Assembly: GCA_019634715.1 (NCBI GenBank) | Contig: JAHCAU010000017.1 | Coordinates: forward strand, 62,001-126,000 | Direction of reading: 5' to 3' | Length of the DNA: 64,000 nt | Source of the DNA: Lysobacter sp. | Lineage (GTDB): Bacteria > Pseudomonadota > Gammaproteobacteria > Xanthomonadales > Xanthomonadaceae | Shown here: piece after piece, positions 44,257 through 50,109 of the stretch | Layout of the letters: the number at the start of each line of letters is the position of its first letter | How positions within the stretch are numbered: the stretch's first letter is position 1 | The notes under the pieces: model-generated | What the model saw: the letters and a program-made list of their open reading frames with translations, nothing else | What the model was told of the DNA's origin: nothing | The model's database searches: none | Position numbers and translations under genes: made by a program

Positions 44257-45345
44257 ATGCGCAAGATCATCCACATCGACATGGATGCGTTCTACGCCTC
44301 GGTCGAGCAGCGCGACGACCCGTCGCTGCGCGGCAAGCCGGTGGTGGTGGCCTGGCGCGGCGCGCGCTCGGTGGTCTGCGCGGCCTCGTACGAAGCGCGC
44401 ACGTTCGGCGTGCGCTCGGCGATGCCGGCGGTCCGCGCCGAACGCCTGTGTCCGCAGGCGATCTTCGTGCCGCCGGACTTCGCGCGCTACAAGGCGGTGT
44501 CGAAGCAGGTGCGCGGGATCTTCGCGCGGCATACCGACCTGATCGAACCGCTGTCGCTGGACGAAGCCTATCTCGACGTCACCGACCCGATGACGCGGCT
44601 GGACGACGGCAGCGTGCCCAGCGCCACCGCCATCGCACAGATCATCCGCGCGCAGATCCGCGAGGAGACCGCGCTCACCGCCTCGGCCGGCGTGGCCCCG
44701 AACAAATTCCTCGCCAAGATCGCCTCCGACTGGCGCAAGCCGGACGGGCAGTTCGTGATCAAGCCCGCGCAGGTGTTCGACTTCCTCACGCCGCTGCCGG
44801 TGGGCTGCATTCCCGGCGTCGGCAAGGTCATGCAGCAGAAGCTGGAAACCCTGGGCGTCGCCACCGTCGGCGACCTGCGCGCGCTGGGTGCGGAGCGCCT
44901 GCAGCGCGAGTTCGGCAGCTTCGGCCTGCGCCTGCACCAGCGCGCGCAGGGCATCGACGAGCGCCCGGTCGAACCCGACCAGCCGGTGCAGTCGATCTCG
45001 TCGGAAGACACCTTCGCGCGCGACGTGCCGCTGTCGGAGATCGAGCCGATGATCCGCCAGCTCGCCGAACGCACCTGGGCCGCCACGCGCAAGACCGAAC
45101 GCATCGGCCGCACCGTGGTGCTGAAACTGAAGACCGCGCAGTTCCGCATCCTCACCCGCAGCCACACGCCCGACGCGCCGCCATCGAGCCTGGAACAGCT
45201 CACCGGGATCGCGTTGGCGCTGCGCGATCGCGTCGATTTGCCGCCTTCGACGCTGTACCGCCTCGTCGGCGTCGGCCTGGGCGGTTTCCGCGACCGCGAC
45301 GAGGCGCTGCCGCCGCAGCCGGAGTTGTTCGGCGTGGTGGAGTGA
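44257..45345 (+). CDS. dinB: DNA polymerase IV
   Basis: This 362-residue Y-family polymerase for lesion bypass has the catalytic acids Asp8 (IHIDMDAFYASVEQRDD) and the pair in SLDEAYLDVT. The helix-hairpin-helix LPVGCIPGVGKVMQQKLETL, the little finger (RKTERIGRTVVLKLK) and a normal length support it. No SOS box was looked for in detail in the short gap upstream, which is occupied by the palindromic element. Confidence 0.93.
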   Translation: MRKIIHIDMDAFYASVEQRDDPSLRGKPVVVAWRGARSVVCAASYEARTFGVRSAMPAVRAERLCPQAIFVPPDFARYKAVSKQVRGIFARHTDLIEPLSLDEAYLDVTDPMTRLDDGSVPSATAIAQIIRAQIREETALTASAGVAPNKFLAKIASDWRKPDGQFVIKPAQVFDFLTPLPVGCIPGVGKVMQQKLETLGVATVGDLRALGAERLQREFGSFGLRLHQRAQGIDERPVEPDQPVQSISSEDTFARDVPLSEIEPMIRQLAERTWAATRKTERIGRTVVLKLKTAQFRILTRSHTPDAPPSSLEQLTGIALALRDRVDLPPSTLYRLVGVGLGGFRDRDEALPPQPELFGVVE

Positions 45346-45349
45346 TCCA

Positions 45350-47014
45350 TCACCCCGGCTTCTTCGCCTTCCACGCTTTCGCCGCCGCCACCGCCTTGCC
45401 GGCGTCGATGCGGCCGAAGCCGTAGCGGTTGGAATGGCCGTTGGCCTTGTAGGCGGAGGCCGGGCCGATCTTCTTCGCGGTGCCGGTGAGCAGCTTGCGC
45501 ACGTCCTCCGGCGCGAGTTGCGGCTTGAGCGAGAGCAGCAGCCCGCACAGGCCTGCCACCAGCGGCGTCGCCGACGAGGTGCCGCCGAAGTCGTCGCAGT
45601 ACAGGCCCTTGGCGTCGCCTGCGGTGCCCGGGTTGAAGCCGCGCCCCGGGATCGAGACATCGGTGGTGAAGATGCCGCGCGTGCCGCCGTTGGACGGGGC
45701 CACGACGCTGATCTGCGGGCCGCGGTTGGAATAGCCGGCGAGTTCGTCCTTGTCGGTCGATGCGCCGATCGCGATCGCGTTCGGATCGGAGGCGGGGTAG
45801 TCGACTTCATTGGCGCCATCGTTGCCCGCGGCGCAGACCACCACCGCGCCCTTGCCCTTGCGCCCGAAGCGGCGCGCATCCTGCAGGGCGAATTCGATGT
45901 CGGGACTTTTCGCGCCGCCCCACGAGCAGGAAAGCACGTCGGCGAAGGTCGCGGCGTAGCGGATCGCGTCGGCGACCTGGCTTTCGGCCGCGAAGTCGTC
46001 GGCGTGGAAGATCTTCACCGGCAGCAGGCGGCAGTTCGGCGCGATGCCGTAGACGCGCGGCCCGCGTCCGACGGCGACGCCCGCGCAGGGTGTGCCGTGC
46101 ACGTCGTTGCCGCCCATCTGGTCGAACGGCGCGCGGAAGCGCTTGGGGCGCGGGTTGAAGTGATCGGCATCGTCGTCGGGCAGGAAGAAATCGCGTCCGC
46201 ACAGGTCGCGCGCTTCGTCCGGGTCCGGACTGCGCAGCACGTTGCCGCGCAGTTCGGGGTGCTCGACATCGACGCCGTCGTCGAGCACGGCGATCACCAC
46301 GGCGCGCTTGCCGCGGGTCAGTTTCCAGGCCTTCGATGCGCCGATGGTGCGCAGGTGCCACTGCTTCGCCGGCGGCGTGGTGACGGCGGCCGGCAGGCTG
46401 CGGCGGAACTGCGAGACGAAGTTCGGCGCGGCGAAGGCGACTTCGTCCAGCGTCGCCAGACGTGCGGCCAGTTTCACCAGCGCTTCGCCGGGGTGGTGAT
46501 GCTCGTCGTCGCTGAGGATGTACTGGTCGGGCACCAGCGGGTTGCGCGCGCACACCTTCAGGCCGGTGTCGCGCAGGATCGCGGTGCGCGCCTTCTGCGG
46601 CGCATCCTCATGGAAGCGCAGCACGATCTCCTTGTAGAGGATGCGCATCAGCCGGGTGTCGCGGTCCAGCCAGGCGGTGATCGTCTTGCGCTGCAGCGAC
46701 TGGTCGTGCGCCCTGCGCGCGGCGGCGCTCGGCGCTGCCAGCACCTCGCCGCCGACGCGGCTGCGCTCGGGCAGTTCGAAGAAGGCCTGCGCGGCGCGCA
46801 TCACCCGTGCGGTGGCCATGGCCGCGACCGGCGTGCCCGACAGGCGGGCCACGGTCTCGCCGGCGACCGCTTCGAGCGTGAGCGGCAGGGGTTCGAGATC
46901 GACCCATTCGCCGGAACCCATGCGCATGCCGAGGTCGGTGCGGGTGGCCGATGCTGCGGGAAGGTCGATGGCGACGGCGCCCGAGCGCGCGTGGGCGGAG
47001 GACTTGGGGGACAT
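45350..47014 (-). CDS. S8 (subtilisin-like) serine peptidase
   Basis: This 554-residue protein has the catalytic triad Asp245 (AVLDDGVDVEHPEL), His306 (DVHGTPCAGVA) and Ser480 (GGTSSATPLVAG), with the oxyanion Asn398 (CAAGNDGANE). A ~230-residue N-terminal part ends in a propeptide-like segment (LATLDEVAFAAPNFVSQFRR). There is no signal peptide, so it may be intracellular or secreted by another route. The ATG at 47014 has GGAAGTGAGG just ahead of it. It is the downstream neighbour of a propeptide-like small protein, 106 bp apart on the same strand. Confidence 0.87.
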   Translation of the reverse strand: MSPKSSAHARSGAVAIDLPAASATRTDLGMRMGSGEWVDLEPLPLTLEAVAGETVARLSGTPVAAMATARVMRAAQAFFELPERSRVGGEVLAAPSAAARRAHDQSLQRKTITAWLDRDTRLMRILYKEIVLRFHEDAPQKARTAILRDTGLKVCARNPLVPDQYILSDDEHHHPGEALVKLAARLATLDEVAFAAPNFVSQFRRSLPAAVTTPPAKQWHLRTIGASKAWKLTRGKRAVVIAVLDDGVDVEHPELRGNVLRSPDPDEARDLCGRDFFLPDDDADHFNPRPKRFRAPFDQMGGNDVHGTPCAGVAVGRGPRVYGIAPNCRLLPVKIFHADDFAAESQVADAIRYAATFADVLSCSWGGAKSPDIEFALQDARRFGRKGKGAVVVCAAGNDGANEVDYPASDPNAIAIGASTDKDELAGYSNRGPQISVVAPSNGGTRGIFTTDVSIPGRGFNPGTAGDAKGLYCDDFGGTSSATPLVAGLCGLLLSLKPQLAPEDVRKLLTGTAKKIGPASAYKANGHSNRYGFGRIDAGKAVAAAKAWKAKKPG

Positions 47015-47120
47015 GGCGCACCTCACTTCCTGTAAGGGGAGGGATCGATTATCGCCAGAATCGCGTCACCACGTGAGACTGGCGTACCGCCGGTCGGGTC
47101 GCGCGCGGCGCCGGAGCAGG

Positions 47121-47621
47121 CTACGAGCGGTGGAACGCGCTTTCCGCGTCGAACCAGACGGCCTCGACGTGCGCGTCGTTCTCGATGCGGCCGCTGACGT
47201 CGGGCAGGAAGACCTCGCTGCCCTCGGTGGGCCGGAACAGCGCCTGCTGCCGGGTGAACTTCGCGCGCGAGACGAACTCCAGGCCGTAGGCGCTGGCCAG
47301 CGCCTGCAGTTGCTGTTCGCTGGCCTCGTCCTCCAGGCGCAGCGACAGCAGGCCGGTGGGATAGCGGCACTGGCCGCGCTCGTCGACCAGGGCCGGCATG
47401 ACCAGGAAATCGTTGCCCAGCAGCTTGTGCAGCCTGCGCCAGCCCTCGCGGGCGCTGCGCGGCAGCTTGTTCAGCTTCACCACCCAGCCGGGCAGGCGGC
47501 CGTCCAGCGGGCTGACGCTGGCCTTGCCTTCCAGGCGCGCCAGCCCAGCGGCCTGGACCTGGGCGGTCGCGGGCCGGACGACGAAGAGGCCGGGGCTGAG
47601 CTGTTCGGAACTGGACGACAT
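47121..47621 (-). CDS. protein resembling a subtilase N-terminal (propeptide) domain
   Basis: This 166-residue soluble protein starts at the ATG at 47621 with GAGGA 5 nt ahead. The C-terminal half (YPTGLLSLRLEDEASEQQLQ, ALASAYGLEFVSRAKFT, then RIENDAHVEAVWFD) follows the pattern seen in peptidase prodomains, where a segment ends in 'V..A.pnF'. A comparable segment occurs in the neighbouring peptidase. A function as intramolecular-chaperone-like or inhibitor partner is inference. No named family is recognised. Confidence 0.6.
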   Translation of the reverse strand: MSSSSEQLSPGLFVVRPATAQVQAAGLARLEGKASVSPLDGRLPGWVVKLNKLPRSAREGWRRLHKLLGNDFLVMPALVDERGQCRYPTGLLSLRLEDEASEQQLQALASAYGLEFVSRAKFTRQQALFRPTEGSEVFLPDVSGRIENDAHVEAVWFDAESAFHRS

Positions 47622-47735
47622 GACGTCCTCGGTACTGCGATGCGGAACGCGAAACTGTGCGCGGGTGCGCATGTGGTATCACACGCCCGAGAGCGTGCGC
47701 AAGCGCACAGATGGGGCCTTTCGCGCCAGCGGCAA

Positions 47736-47758
47736 GCCCTCCCGGGAGCCGGGAGGGC
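47736..47758 (-). terminator. hairpin downstream of btuB
   Basis: GCCCTCCCGG and CCGGGAGGGC pair perfectly around GAG. It lies about 50 bp past the btuB stop codon on the minus strand. There is no T-run, so it is a candidate only. Confidence 0.45.
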
Positions 47759-47809
47759 AGGTGGCGCTGATCCGCGCCGAGCGGGTCGGCGTCCGCTGGG
47801 AAGGCCGGC

Positions 47810-49699
47810 TCAGCCAGCCGGCTGGAACCGCAGCGTCAGCGACCAGGTGCGGCCGGGCTGGTTGTAGAAGGAGGTGGTCTCGTAGCGCTCGTCGAACAGG
47901 TTCGCGACCCGGGCCTGCAGGGTCCAGTGCCGCGCGAAGCGGTACTCGGCGCGCAGGTCGAGGGTGGCGAAGCCGTCGACGCGGCGGGTGTTGCCGAGGT
48001 CGTCGTAGCGCTTGCCGCTGGCGACGCCGGTCAGGCCGACGCTGAAGTCGCCGAAGGCACGGTCGATGTCGATGCGCGCCGATTCGCGCGCGCGGCGCGG
48101 CAGGTCCTTGCCGTAGTTGCCGCCCGGGACGCGGTTCTCCGGGTCCAGCCAGCTGGCGGCACCGACGATGTCCCAGCCGAACACGGCCGTGTCGACCTGC
48201 AGCTCGGCGCCGCGCAGGCGGGTCTTCTCGATGTTGTTCGGCAGGAAGATCGAGCCGTCGTAGGCGATCAGGTCGTCGACGCGGGTCTCGAAGGCGTTCA
48301 GCGCCACGCGGGTGCGCTCGCCGCGCCAGGCCAGGCCGAGGTCGAAGGTCCTCGACGATTCCGGGCGCAGGTCCGGATTGCCGAAGAACGGGAAGTACAG
48401 TTCGTTGAAGGTCGGTGCCTTGAACGCGGTGCCATAGCTGGCCGTGACGCGCCAGTGCTCGGCGAAGCCCATGCCCCAGGCGGCGCTGCCGGTGGTCTTG
48501 CCGCCGAACTGGTCGTTGTCGTCGCGGCGCACGGCGAGCTGCAGGTCGTGCGTGCCGAACCCACCCTGGTACTGCGCGAACACCGCGGCGTTGCCGCGAC
48601 GGGTGTCGTCGTAGTCGGTATCGCCGTCGACGCGGTCGCGCAGCCAGTCGAGGCCTGCGGTCAGCACCTGGCGCTCGGCGACGGTGAAGTCGGCCTGCAC
48701 CGAGGCGCTGTCGCGCTGCGTGGCGAATTCGCCGGCGGGCGTGGTGCCGAGGAAGTTCTCCGACTCGTCCTTGTTGCTGCCGGCGGCGAAGCGCACCGCG
48801 ACGCGTTCGCCGGTCTGCCAGGTCAGTGTCGCGCCGACGACCTGCTGCACGATGTCGGAGTTGTCGACGAAGCTGCCGTCGTATTCGTTTTCGCCGCTCA
48901 CGCGCAGCGCATGGCCCTGCAGCACGACCGATTCGCCGATGTTCACGCCGCCGCGCAGCGAGAACGCATGCTGCCGGTAGCCGTCGCGGTCGGTCTGGCC
49001 GTCGACGAAGCAGCCGGCGAAGACCGGGAAGCCGGCGCCGCGGCAGGCATCGATGCCGTCGGTCTGCTTGAAGCCGGCATCGAGGCCGAACCAGCCGCGT
49101 TCGCTGCCGCCGCCGATGCCGATGCCGCCCTCGCGGCGGCCATGGCTGCCGGCGCCGGCGTGGAAGCGGAACGTCGCGTCGCCGCGATCGCGGCGGGTGA
49201 AGATCTGGATCACGCCGCCGATGGCTTCCGAGCCGTAGAGGCTGGAGCGCGGGCCGCGCACGATCTCGATGCGGTCGACCAGCGAGACCGGCAGGTCCTG
49301 GAACGAGACCAGCCCCGAGGTCGCCGAACCCACGCGCACGCCGTCGATCAGCACCAGCACGTGGTCGGATTCGCTGCCGCGCACGAACAGCGTGGTGAGC
49401 TTGCCGTCGCCGCCCTGGTTCGACAGGTTGATGCCGGCGCGGCCGCGCAGCAGGTCCGCGAGCGAGGTGGCCTGCGCGCGCAGGATCTCGTCGCGCGTGA
49501 TCACCTCGACCGGCGCCAGCGTGGCGTCGGTGGTGACGGCGGTGCGGGTGGCGGTGACCACCACTTCGTCCAGGGCGTCGCCAGCGTCGGCATTGGCGGC
49601 GAGGACGGTGCCGGGCAGCACGGCGGCGATGGCCAGGCTGAGCGGCAGGAGGCGGGACAGGCCGGCGCAACGGCCGGCGGGAAGGACTCGGAACGACAT
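47810..49699 (-). CDS. btuB: TonB-dependent vitamin B12 receptor
   Basis: This 629-residue outer-membrane protein has a signal peptide (~1-34, ending GTVLA), a TonB box within DEVVVTATR, and a plug domain (VEVITRDEILRAQATSLADL, then VRGSESDHVLVLIDGVRVG and VDRIEIVRGPRSSLYGSEAI). The 22-stranded barrel ends in LTLRFQPAG. The plug motifs fit BtuB, which imports cobalamin, and the upstream cobalamin riboswitch supports that. The end is PAG rather than the usual terminal aromatic. The ATG at 49699 is chosen. Confidence 0.88.
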   Translation of the reverse strand: MSFRVLPAGRCAGLSRLLPLSLAIAAVLPGTVLAANADAGDALDEVVVTATRTAVTTDATLAPVEVITRDEILRAQATSLADLLRGRAGINLSNQGGDGKLTTLFVRGSESDHVLVLIDGVRVGSATSGLVSFQDLPVSLVDRIEIVRGPRSSLYGSEAIGGVIQIFTRRDRGDATFRFHAGAGSHGRREGGIGIGGGSERGWFGLDAGFKQTDGIDACRGAGFPVFAGCFVDGQTDRDGYRQHAFSLRGGVNIGESVVLQGHALRVSGENEYDGSFVDNSDIVQQVVGATLTWQTGERVAVRFAAGSNKDESENFLGTTPAGEFATQRDSASVQADFTVAERQVLTAGLDWLRDRVDGDTDYDDTRRGNAAVFAQYQGGFGTHDLQLAVRRDDNDQFGGKTTGSAAWGMGFAEHWRVTASYGTAFKAPTFNELYFPFFGNPDLRPESSRTFDLGLAWRGERTRVALNAFETRVDDLIAYDGSIFLPNNIEKTRLRGAELQVDTAVFGWDIVGAASWLDPENRVPGGNYGKDLPRRARESARIDIDRAFGDFSVGLTGVASGKRYDDLGNTRRVDGFATLDLRAEYRFARHWTLQARVANLFDERYETTSFYNQPGRTWSLTLRFQPAG

Positions 49700-49837
49700 G
49701 CAGGGACTCCATCGCGCGCACCCGCGCGCTGATCTGGTGTGGAGTCGCGATGGGGAAGGCAGGGACGAGCGAAGGGCCGGCACGAGCGGACGGCGACATC
49801 GCCGCAATGCCCTCCGCATCGCAACCGTAAGGCTTCG

Positions 49838-50040
49838 TGGCCGGTCTCCGGGCTTGCGCGTCCGGCCGTTGCCCATGGGCGTGGCCGGGGCCTTCGCGCC
49901 TTCCCGCGGCGGTGCCGCAGTGGCGGATGATGCGAAGGGTTCACGTGCTTACCGTTGCGGGGGCAGCGCCGGAATGGTGCCGTCGACGACGGCGCGCACC
50001 GGCTTCCCGTTTCAACCCGGCACAGGAACCTGTGGCCGGA
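49838..50040 (-). promoter_or_regulatory. cobalamin (AdoCbl) riboswitch
   Basis: Read on the minus strand, the leader shows the main parts of this riboswitch class in order: GGTTGAAACGGGAAGCCGGT near the 5' end, the B12-box region GCGCTGCCCCCGCAACGGTA, then GGGAAGGCG and AAGCCCGGAGACCGGCC at the 3' end. It ends about 140 nt before the btuB start and is expected to switch off btuB when cobalamin is plentiful. Boundaries are approximate. Confidence 0.9.
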
Positions 50041-50109
50041 TCACCGCGAAGCGGCCGGCATTGTAGCGGATCGGGTCGGGAGACGCCGGGCGTAGCCCGG
50101 CGCGGGGCC

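Follow-up and report, generated by a model that had tools for sequence, protein, structure and literature searches.

Organization of the locus

We describe here two adjacent genes in a 64,000-nucleotide stretch of DNA from Lysobacter sp. (GenBank assembly GCA_019634715.1, contig JAHCAU010000017.1, positions 62,001 to 126,000 of the forward strand; hereafter the window), where the gene for a subtilase of family S8, P0002, is accompanied by a gene for a small protein, P0001, that resembles the pro-region of such enzymes. Both genes lie on the minus strand where a sequence-only reading of the window had placed them, with the P0001 gene directly upstream of the P0002 gene (Table 1). The predicted masses are 18.3 kDa for P0001 and 58.8 kDa for P0002, the length of the latter being counted from an ATG codon, with an alternative GTG start giving 558 residues.

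Table 1. Features of the P0001-P0002 locus and its upstream neighbours, in window coordinates.
Feature	Coordinates	Strand	Description
P0001	47121..47621	-	Free-standing subtilase pro-region-like protein, 166 amino acids
P0001 domain 1, residues 7-79	47385..47603	-	Predicted beta-alpha-beta-beta-alpha-beta unit; homology without sequence support by itself
P0001 domain 2, residues 85-166	47124..47369	-	Homologous, by profile comparison, to the S8 pro-region domain adjoining the catalytic domain
P0001 C-terminal tail, residues 163-166	47124..47135	-	[FY]-x-R-[STG] in 7/7 rows; proposed active-site insert, position inferred from subtilase propeptides
P0002	45350..47014	-	S8 peptidase, 554 amino acids, no visible signal peptide
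P0002 N-terminal extension, residues 1-107	46694..47014	-	Unassigned; weakly conserved in the orthologue that diverges most
P0002 own prodomain, residues 130-206	46397..46627	-	Ends in [FY]-x-R-S in 7/7 rows
P0002 catalytic domain, residues 237-534	45413..46306	-	PF00082; presumed triad D245, H306, S480
TonB-dependent vitamin B12 receptor	47810..49876	-	TIGR01779, 624.8 bits (cut-off 599.7)
Cobalamin riboswitch	49822..50063	-	Precedes the B12 receptor gene

P0002 belongs to family S8, matching the Pfam model Peptidase_S8 with 166.2 bits against a cut-off of 21.8, and all seven P0002 orthologues match the same model. The residues that we take, from subtilase motifs, to be the catalytic triad (Asp245, His306 and Ser480) and the oxyanion residue (Asn398) are invariant across the seven-row alignment, and an alignment of P0002 to mirolase runs parallel at the catalytic residues, in agreement with this assignment. 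The peptidase had been said to lack a signal peptide, and we find that neither P0001 nor P0002 has a hydrophobic N-terminus or a visible signal peptide at any of the seven loci, as judged by hydropathy only (the highest 12-residue mean within the first 41 residues is 1.39 over the 14 proteins). Two database matches of P0002 were set aside: those in NCBIfam (mycosin and others) are all below cut-off, and a PADLOC 'subtilase' match (1.2e-25) is to the catalytic domain, with no defence genes seen among the immediate neighbours (the rest of the window was not scanned for them).

Homology of P0001 to S8 pro-regions

Family models say little about P0001. It has no match in NCBIfam or PADLOC, and its only match among 24,736 Pfam models is to ORF_2_N (PF18492), far below threshold (13.1 against 29.2 bits, E 0.11); a sub-threshold match to this model occurs in two of the seven P0001 orthologues. 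The fervidolysin-type prodomain model PF22148 matches none of the seven at E 10, and on this sequence comparison P0001 is not filed under that family. Searches of PDB sequences with P0001 or its profile give chance matches only.

Profile comparisons are more informative, and they uphold the claim that the neighbouring peptidase contains a segment comparable to the small protein. Residues 92-166 of P0001 align with residues 130-206 of P0002 end to end in hhalign (P 0.036); when columns are shuffled, the score of the P0001 C-terminal half is reached in 14 of 300 trials against the whole peptidase, in five of 300 against the prodomain only, and in none of 300 with at least 60 columns aligned, and BLASTP of P0001 against P0002 gives nothing significant. 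Both proteins also connect to an S8 precursor from another family of the class (L038, in genome G531), which is matched by the P0001 profile over residues 68-123 (E 9.8e-4) and, in the same register, by a profile of the P0002 prodomain (E 1.5e-7). Compared directly in hhalign, P0001 and L038 give P 5e-5, and P0002 aligns with L038 at 2e-51, mainly through the catalytic domain.

A search with the L038 pro-region found six further genomes among 369 of the class, and an outside pro-region profile was made from seven S8 precursors of other genomes, two of them 96% identical. This profile scores 38.1 against the C-terminal half of P0001 and 45.7 against the own prodomain of P0002, values reached by none of 300 shuffles in either case (maxima 22.5 and 20.3). 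The corresponding scores are 17.0 for the N-terminal half of P0001 (four of 300 shuffles, out of register) and 9.9 for the N-terminal extension of P0002 (164 of 300). Because L038 had been chosen with the help of P0001, the test was repeated without it, giving 29.2 for the P0001 C-terminal half and 38.1 for the P0002 prodomain with none of 200 shuffles reaching either score, these shuffle tests with the outside profile having been designed after the relation was already suspected. Among the 480 open reading frames (ORFs) of the window, the top two for the profile without L038 are P0002, at 21.9 bits, and P0001, at 11.9 bits, with the next match at 5.1 bits.

These comparisons show that domain 2 of P0001 is homologous to S8 pro-regions, as is the prodomain that P0002 itself carries; the two segments stop at an equivalent place and share a terminal motif (Table 1). 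An eight-member version of the pro-region profile (A4), which holds L038 and no P0001 sequence, retrieves convertase-1 prodomains from the PDB sequences (E 0.003), in agreement with the fold search described below. The L038 pro-region on its own has no PDB sequence matches and scores below the PF22148 cut-off (14.8 against 21 bits).

Predicted fold of P0001

The AlphaFold2 model of P0001, computed from the seven sequences, has a mean predicted local distance difference test (pLDDT) score of 84.3 and shows one beta-alpha-beta-beta-alpha-beta unit at residues 7-79 followed by a second at residues 85-160, with residues 162-166 forming a tail of low confidence; P0001 is thus predicted to consist of two ferredoxin-like domains. 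A fold prediction for the small protein alone had been named as a check on its likeness to subtilase prodomains, and the result speaks for that likeness. In VIA-align the first eight rows are taken up by pro-subtilisin E, convertase-1 prodomains, complexes of subtilisin with its propeptide and the ASP-ORF2 complex, at Z 8.3 to 6.8, where values under 8 may reflect just a common arrangement and 8.3 is at the edge of the informative range. Individual values are 8.3 for pro-subtilisin E (3whi), 7.5 for the complex of furin with the PC1/3 prodomain (9fie), 7.4 for the subtilisin-propeptide complexes 1scj and 1spb, and 7.1, over 90 residues, for chain B of the ASP-ORF2 complex (3wqb), which is taken as ORF2 from its length. 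The second domain likewise has subtilase propeptides as its best PDB fold match, with Z up to 8.3.

The fold does not by itself settle the identity of P0001, because RRM and other ferredoxin-like folds follow from Z 6.8 down, and because the top Foldseek E-values go elsewhere. This raises the alternative that P0001 is an unrelated ferredoxin-like protein, such as an ACT- or RRM-like regulator, that is adjacent to the peptidase gene by chance. The lowest Foldseek E-values do belong to HMA, ACT and RRM tandem domains, but those alignments have template modelling (TM) scores of about 0.3 and root-mean-square deviations of ~10 Å or more, whereas the convertase prodomain rows superpose at 3.0-4.4 Å with target TM scores of 0.66-0.73. 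Given also the significant profile homology to S8 pro-regions, we consider a chance neighbour improbable. Taken with an ORF of its own in all seven genomes, the predicted model and the top VIA-align rows suggest that P0001 is a propeptide fold encoded as a separate gene, with the fold that characterizes MEROPS family I9 and clan JC.

Conservation of the gene pair

P0001 is present in seven of the 11 genomes of the genus, and P0002 orthologues occur in the same seven. In the window and in all six of the others the two genes are adjacent, between the B12 receptor gene (btuB) and dinB, with the P0001 gene upstream on the same strand and a gap of 32-106 nucleotides (nt). Four genomes lack the pair, and three of them yielded dinB (G153 has the dinB end only, at a contig end); the fourth, G149, is 75% complete and stands outside the site count. 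At all three of the sites found without the pair, btuB and dinB are oriented towards each other and separated by 85 to 229 nt, measured between alignment ends, and these empty sites contain no ORF of at least 60 residues matching P0001 or P0002. Because of this co-presence and the empty sites, the pair behaves as a cassette that is gained or lost as a unit. An eighth S8 match, at 40% identity in G153, was rejected as a P0002 orthologue, being a different S8 peptidase with an N-terminal pro-region of its own.

Comparisons of close relatives show purifying selection on both genes, with ratios of nonsynonymous to synonymous substitution rates (dN/dS) of 0.11-0.21 in the three close pairs, rising to 0.69 in the most distant pair, where saturation matters. 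This bears on the possibility that P0001 is a decaying, functionless fragment of a duplicated S8 gene, since it does resemble the front of an S8 precursor cut at the end of the prodomain, as duplication and deletion would leave it. However, the reading frame is intact in all seven genomes, down to 45% identity, its dN/dS is low for the close pairs and its gain or loss coincides with that of the S8 gene, and we regard a decaying fragment as very improbable.

Relatives of P0001 were also sought more widely. A named genome collection yields three loci, all in Lysobacteraceae or Lysobacterales, and the only other match among 398 genomes of the phylum is the S8 precursor L038 described above; L036 is a real S8 precursor. 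Seven extra-genus matches in 149 genomes of the family were dismissed as chance, six of them (L015 and L017-L021) resembling NADH dehydrogenase subunit G by eye and the seventh (L016) being junk. No P0001 match occurs in a plasmid collection at E 1, and no pro-like gene occurs among eight genes neighbouring plasmid relatives of P0002 at five loci (L067-L070 and L072), a scan that did not extend to L071, L073 and L074.

As for the surroundings of the pair, the TonB-dependent B12 receptor gene and its riboswitch lie upstream on the same strand, and the converging gene downstream is dinB (DNA polymerase IV), named by eye from its sequence. A riboswitch followed by a B12-type TonB-dependent receptor is an ordinary arrangement, the receptor persists where the pair is absent, and btuB is probably a bystander. 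A scan of positions 45200-48000 showed no promoter-like site and one terminator-like site, which is on the opposite strand. The whole genome has 22 S8 peptidase matches, a large set, with six of them on one contig (C33, 122-151 kb); in the stretches around the other 21 S8 genes no second free-standing pro-region was found.

Related pro-regions in other genomes

The A4 profile was used to search 190 genomes of the order and 340 of the class, samples that share some genomes. Most matches fall in S8-sized reading frames, and we selected the 12 in frames of 139 to 314 residues that stop before a catalytic domain, leaving out one 270-residue frame because its match, at 147-195, did not. One of the 12 is cut by a contig end and another resembles a cation efflux protein, and both were discarded. 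The remaining ten, from nine genomes, are free-standing pro-regions with N-termini that are hydrophobic or lipoprotein-like by eye. When nine of them, all but L126, were scanned with PF22148, four scored over the cut-off, three scored below it and two had no match.

Eight of the ten (L125-L131 and L133, some of them closely related, namely L125 with L126 and L127 to L130) immediately follow an S8 gene in the same orientation, at distances from a 20 nt overlap to an 85 nt gap. In these eight peptidases the pro-region profile detects no pro-region at E 0.01, with one matching the last 15 profile positions only; the S8 sequence at L125 is truncated N-terminally by the start of its contig, and by eye the N-termini of the remaining seven look like signal or lipoprotein sequences. 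From their sequences the eight pairs resemble the ASP/ORF2 arrangement of Aeromonas sobria and appear to be split zymogens. Most of their free-standing pro-regions end in an SPNWW-like motif plus a basic residue. The other two, L132:5597-6217 and L134:1188-1604, are prodomain-like proteins with PF22148 over the cut-off and no S8 gene detected in the sequence retrieved around them, and it is possible that they are orphan inhibitors.

P0001 is related to these secreted free-standing pro-regions as well, aligning with them over residues 22-123 with an hhalign score of 24.1, reached by none of 150 shuffles, and for its N-terminal half the score is reached by 131 of 150. The pair in the window differs from the eight pairs in having no visible signal peptides, in having the pro-region gene first, and in that the peptidase keeps a prodomain. 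These differences are relevant to a reading in which P0001 is mainly a dedicated foldase, an external chaperone like ORF2 that supplies the full two-domain pro-region partly lost by P0002, which would be dead without it; this overlaps with the explanation we favor below. The first 107 residues of P0002 contain no recognizable first pro-domain and P0001 is predicted to have both domains, while the eight related loci pair a prodomain-less S8 peptidase with an adjacent free-standing pro-region, and the sole Pfam match of P0001, though far below cut-off, is to ORF_2_N, with 3wqb chain B among its fold matches. On the other hand P0002 retains a conserved prodomain, ASP is reportedly propeptide-deficient, as the title of its structure paper has it, and the gene order is reversed relative to all eight split pairs, and we think it unlikely that foldase activity is the main role.

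Other S8 precursors, without visible signal peptides, carry an N-terminal pro-region of ~190 residues (L038 in G531, L049 in G153, and sequences on Leisingera and Pantoea plasmids), the second part of which is homologous to the C-terminal half of P0001 and to the P0002 prodomain. The relation of P0001 domain 1 to the first part of these pro-regions is suggested by its position and predicted fold. They differ from P0001 in that their pro-region and catalytic domain form one polypeptide, and L038 additionally carries a P-domain (PF01483). In L049 (G153:C299) and L045, which have fused N-terminal pro-regions and no visible signal peptide, the C-terminal stretch is P-domain-like by eye, and L049, from the window's own genus, may show the unsplit form. 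By score, P0001 is closest to pro-regions that are joined to S8 peptidases, and it may therefore have become a separate gene in an independent split. An S8 precursor on a plasmid of the archaeon Natrinema (L074) has a pro-region that by eye closely resembles that of the gammaproteobacterial L038, and transfer between domains of life is our guess for it.

Discussion

The explanation that we favor, with a probability of roughly 0.7, is that P0001 is a subtilase pro-region maintained as a separate gene and acting in trans on the adjacent S8 peptidase as an inhibitor, a foldase, or both. It rests directly on the homology of domain 2, the predicted fold, the linkage of the genes and their co-inheritance, and from these we infer binding, inhibitory or foldase activity, cell location and any release signal. 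Domain 2 of P0001 would dock on the P0002 catalytic domain in the manner of a prodomain, and its flexible tail would occupy the active-site cleft in a substrate-like way, by analogy with solved subtilase propeptides, in which the segment past the last strand sits in that cleft. P0001 would thereby help P0002 to fold and block its activity in the cell, and removal or degradation of P0001 would release the enzyme. We think that inhibition is its main role, because P0002 already contains one prodomain and the P0001 gene precedes the peptidase gene at all seven loci, an order in which the inhibitor would be made before a protease that is kept intracellular.

Several points weigh against this explanation. 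P0002 retains its prodomain, so a copy in trans is not obviously needed. The direct profile match between the two proteins is weak by itself (P 0.036), no Pfam prodomain model scores over its cut-off for P0001 or for the P0002 prodomain in any of the seven orthologues of each, and a plain profile search with the secreted free-standing pro-regions misses P0001 (2.5 bits, rank 6 of 480). For the N-terminal half of P0001, sequence comparison offers no separate support. Ferredoxin-like folds are common, the best Foldseek E-values go to other families, and the VIA-align scores reach only the edge of what is informative. The AlphaFold2 model of P0002 from seven sequences is unusable, with a mean pLDDT of 36.5, so its prodomain rests on sequence. 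Finally, a protein that lacks a signal peptide need not be cytoplasmic, as export without one may occur, for which PopC of Myxococcus xanthus is a precedent.

PopC is reported to be a 50.8 kDa S8 peptidase without a signal peptide, encoded in one operon (popC then popD) with PopD, which forms a complex with it and prevents it from being secreted unless the cells starve; PopC is enriched in the periplasm and reaches the outside in a manner requiring the TonB-dependent transporter Oar (PMC6434023, PMC4320627). As a special case of the favored explanation, P0001 might similarly retain P0002 inside the cell and be degraded upon starvation, whereupon P0002 would be exported to act outside. The likeness is one of outline, an S8 peptidase without a signal peptide (58.8 kDa) beside a small co-encoded protein (18.3 kDa). 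The gene order differs, however, with the pro-region preceding the peptidase in the window, the neighbouring TonB-dependent receptor is a B12 receptor that stays where the pair is missing and so provides no evidence for an Oar-like exporter, and no release protease or signal has been identified. We therefore consider such a release switch rather unlikely, and an Oar-like export route for P0002 is unsupported.

A broader version of the favored explanation, which we put forward tentatively and hold to be possible though short of even odds, is that of a double-locked intracellular protease. The two-gene cassette would combine a prodomain in cis with a two-domain pro-region in trans that is made first, perhaps as a PopC/PopD-like release switch built from the enzyme's own pro-region, and would represent a signal-peptide-less branch of a wider group of split-zymogen S8 pairs in Gammaproteobacteria. 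If so, most of the wider split-zymogen pairs have no family name for the small partner. Subtilase prodomains are normally cleaved off and then discarded. In the window one persists as a separate gene next to a protease that has a prodomain and lacks a visible signal peptide, which could allow the foldase and inhibitor functions to be dissected by genetics. The co-inherited cassette, the two predicted domains of P0001 and the recurrence of such proteins beside prodomain-less S8 genes in other bacteria go beyond what the sequence-only reading had proposed. The eight recurring loci suggest that the splitting of a zymogen into two genes extends beyond the Aeromonas ASP and its named relatives, and they provide defined pairs for testing.

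A literature search, as far as its listings show, found no bacterial S8 peptidase that has both its own prodomain and a pro-region in trans, and the known systems each share some features with the pair. In Aeromonas sobria a separate protein with the prodomain fold is likewise encoded beside an S8 peptidase, and the C-terminus of ORF2 lies at the catalytic site of ASP (3wqb). ORF2 is reported to be needed for ASP maturation and to inhibit ASP with a half-maximal inhibitory concentration (IC50) of 84.3 nM, and operons of this type are reported by the ASP authors in Vibrio, Shewanella, Chromobacterium and Pseudoalteromonas (PMC5638518). ASP is extracellular and ORF2 is encoded downstream, whereas P0001 is encoded upstream and neither protein of the window has a visible signal peptide; moreover, a protease without a prodomain of its own is not what we see in P0002, whose residues 130-206 are homologous to S8 pro-regions. 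The stand-alone inhibitors of MEROPS family I9, reported to include Pleurotus peptidase A inhibitor 1, yeast peptidase B inhibitor and Arabidopsis subtilisin propeptide-like inhibitor 1 (PMC6993865), are like P0001 small proteins with the subtilisin-propeptide fold; acting in trans and known inhibition are features of theirs, and P0001 differs in having two predicted domains. With respect to the peptidase retaining its own propeptide, the likeness is with Plasmodium SUB1, as SUB1, like P0002, keeps it. Its partner SUB1-ProM is reported to be a stand-alone propeptide-like protein, syntenic with subtilase genes and a potent inhibitor of SUB1 (PMC6993865), although this system is eukaryotic and probably acts in the parasitophorous vacuole, and the comparison with P0001 claims no sequence relation.

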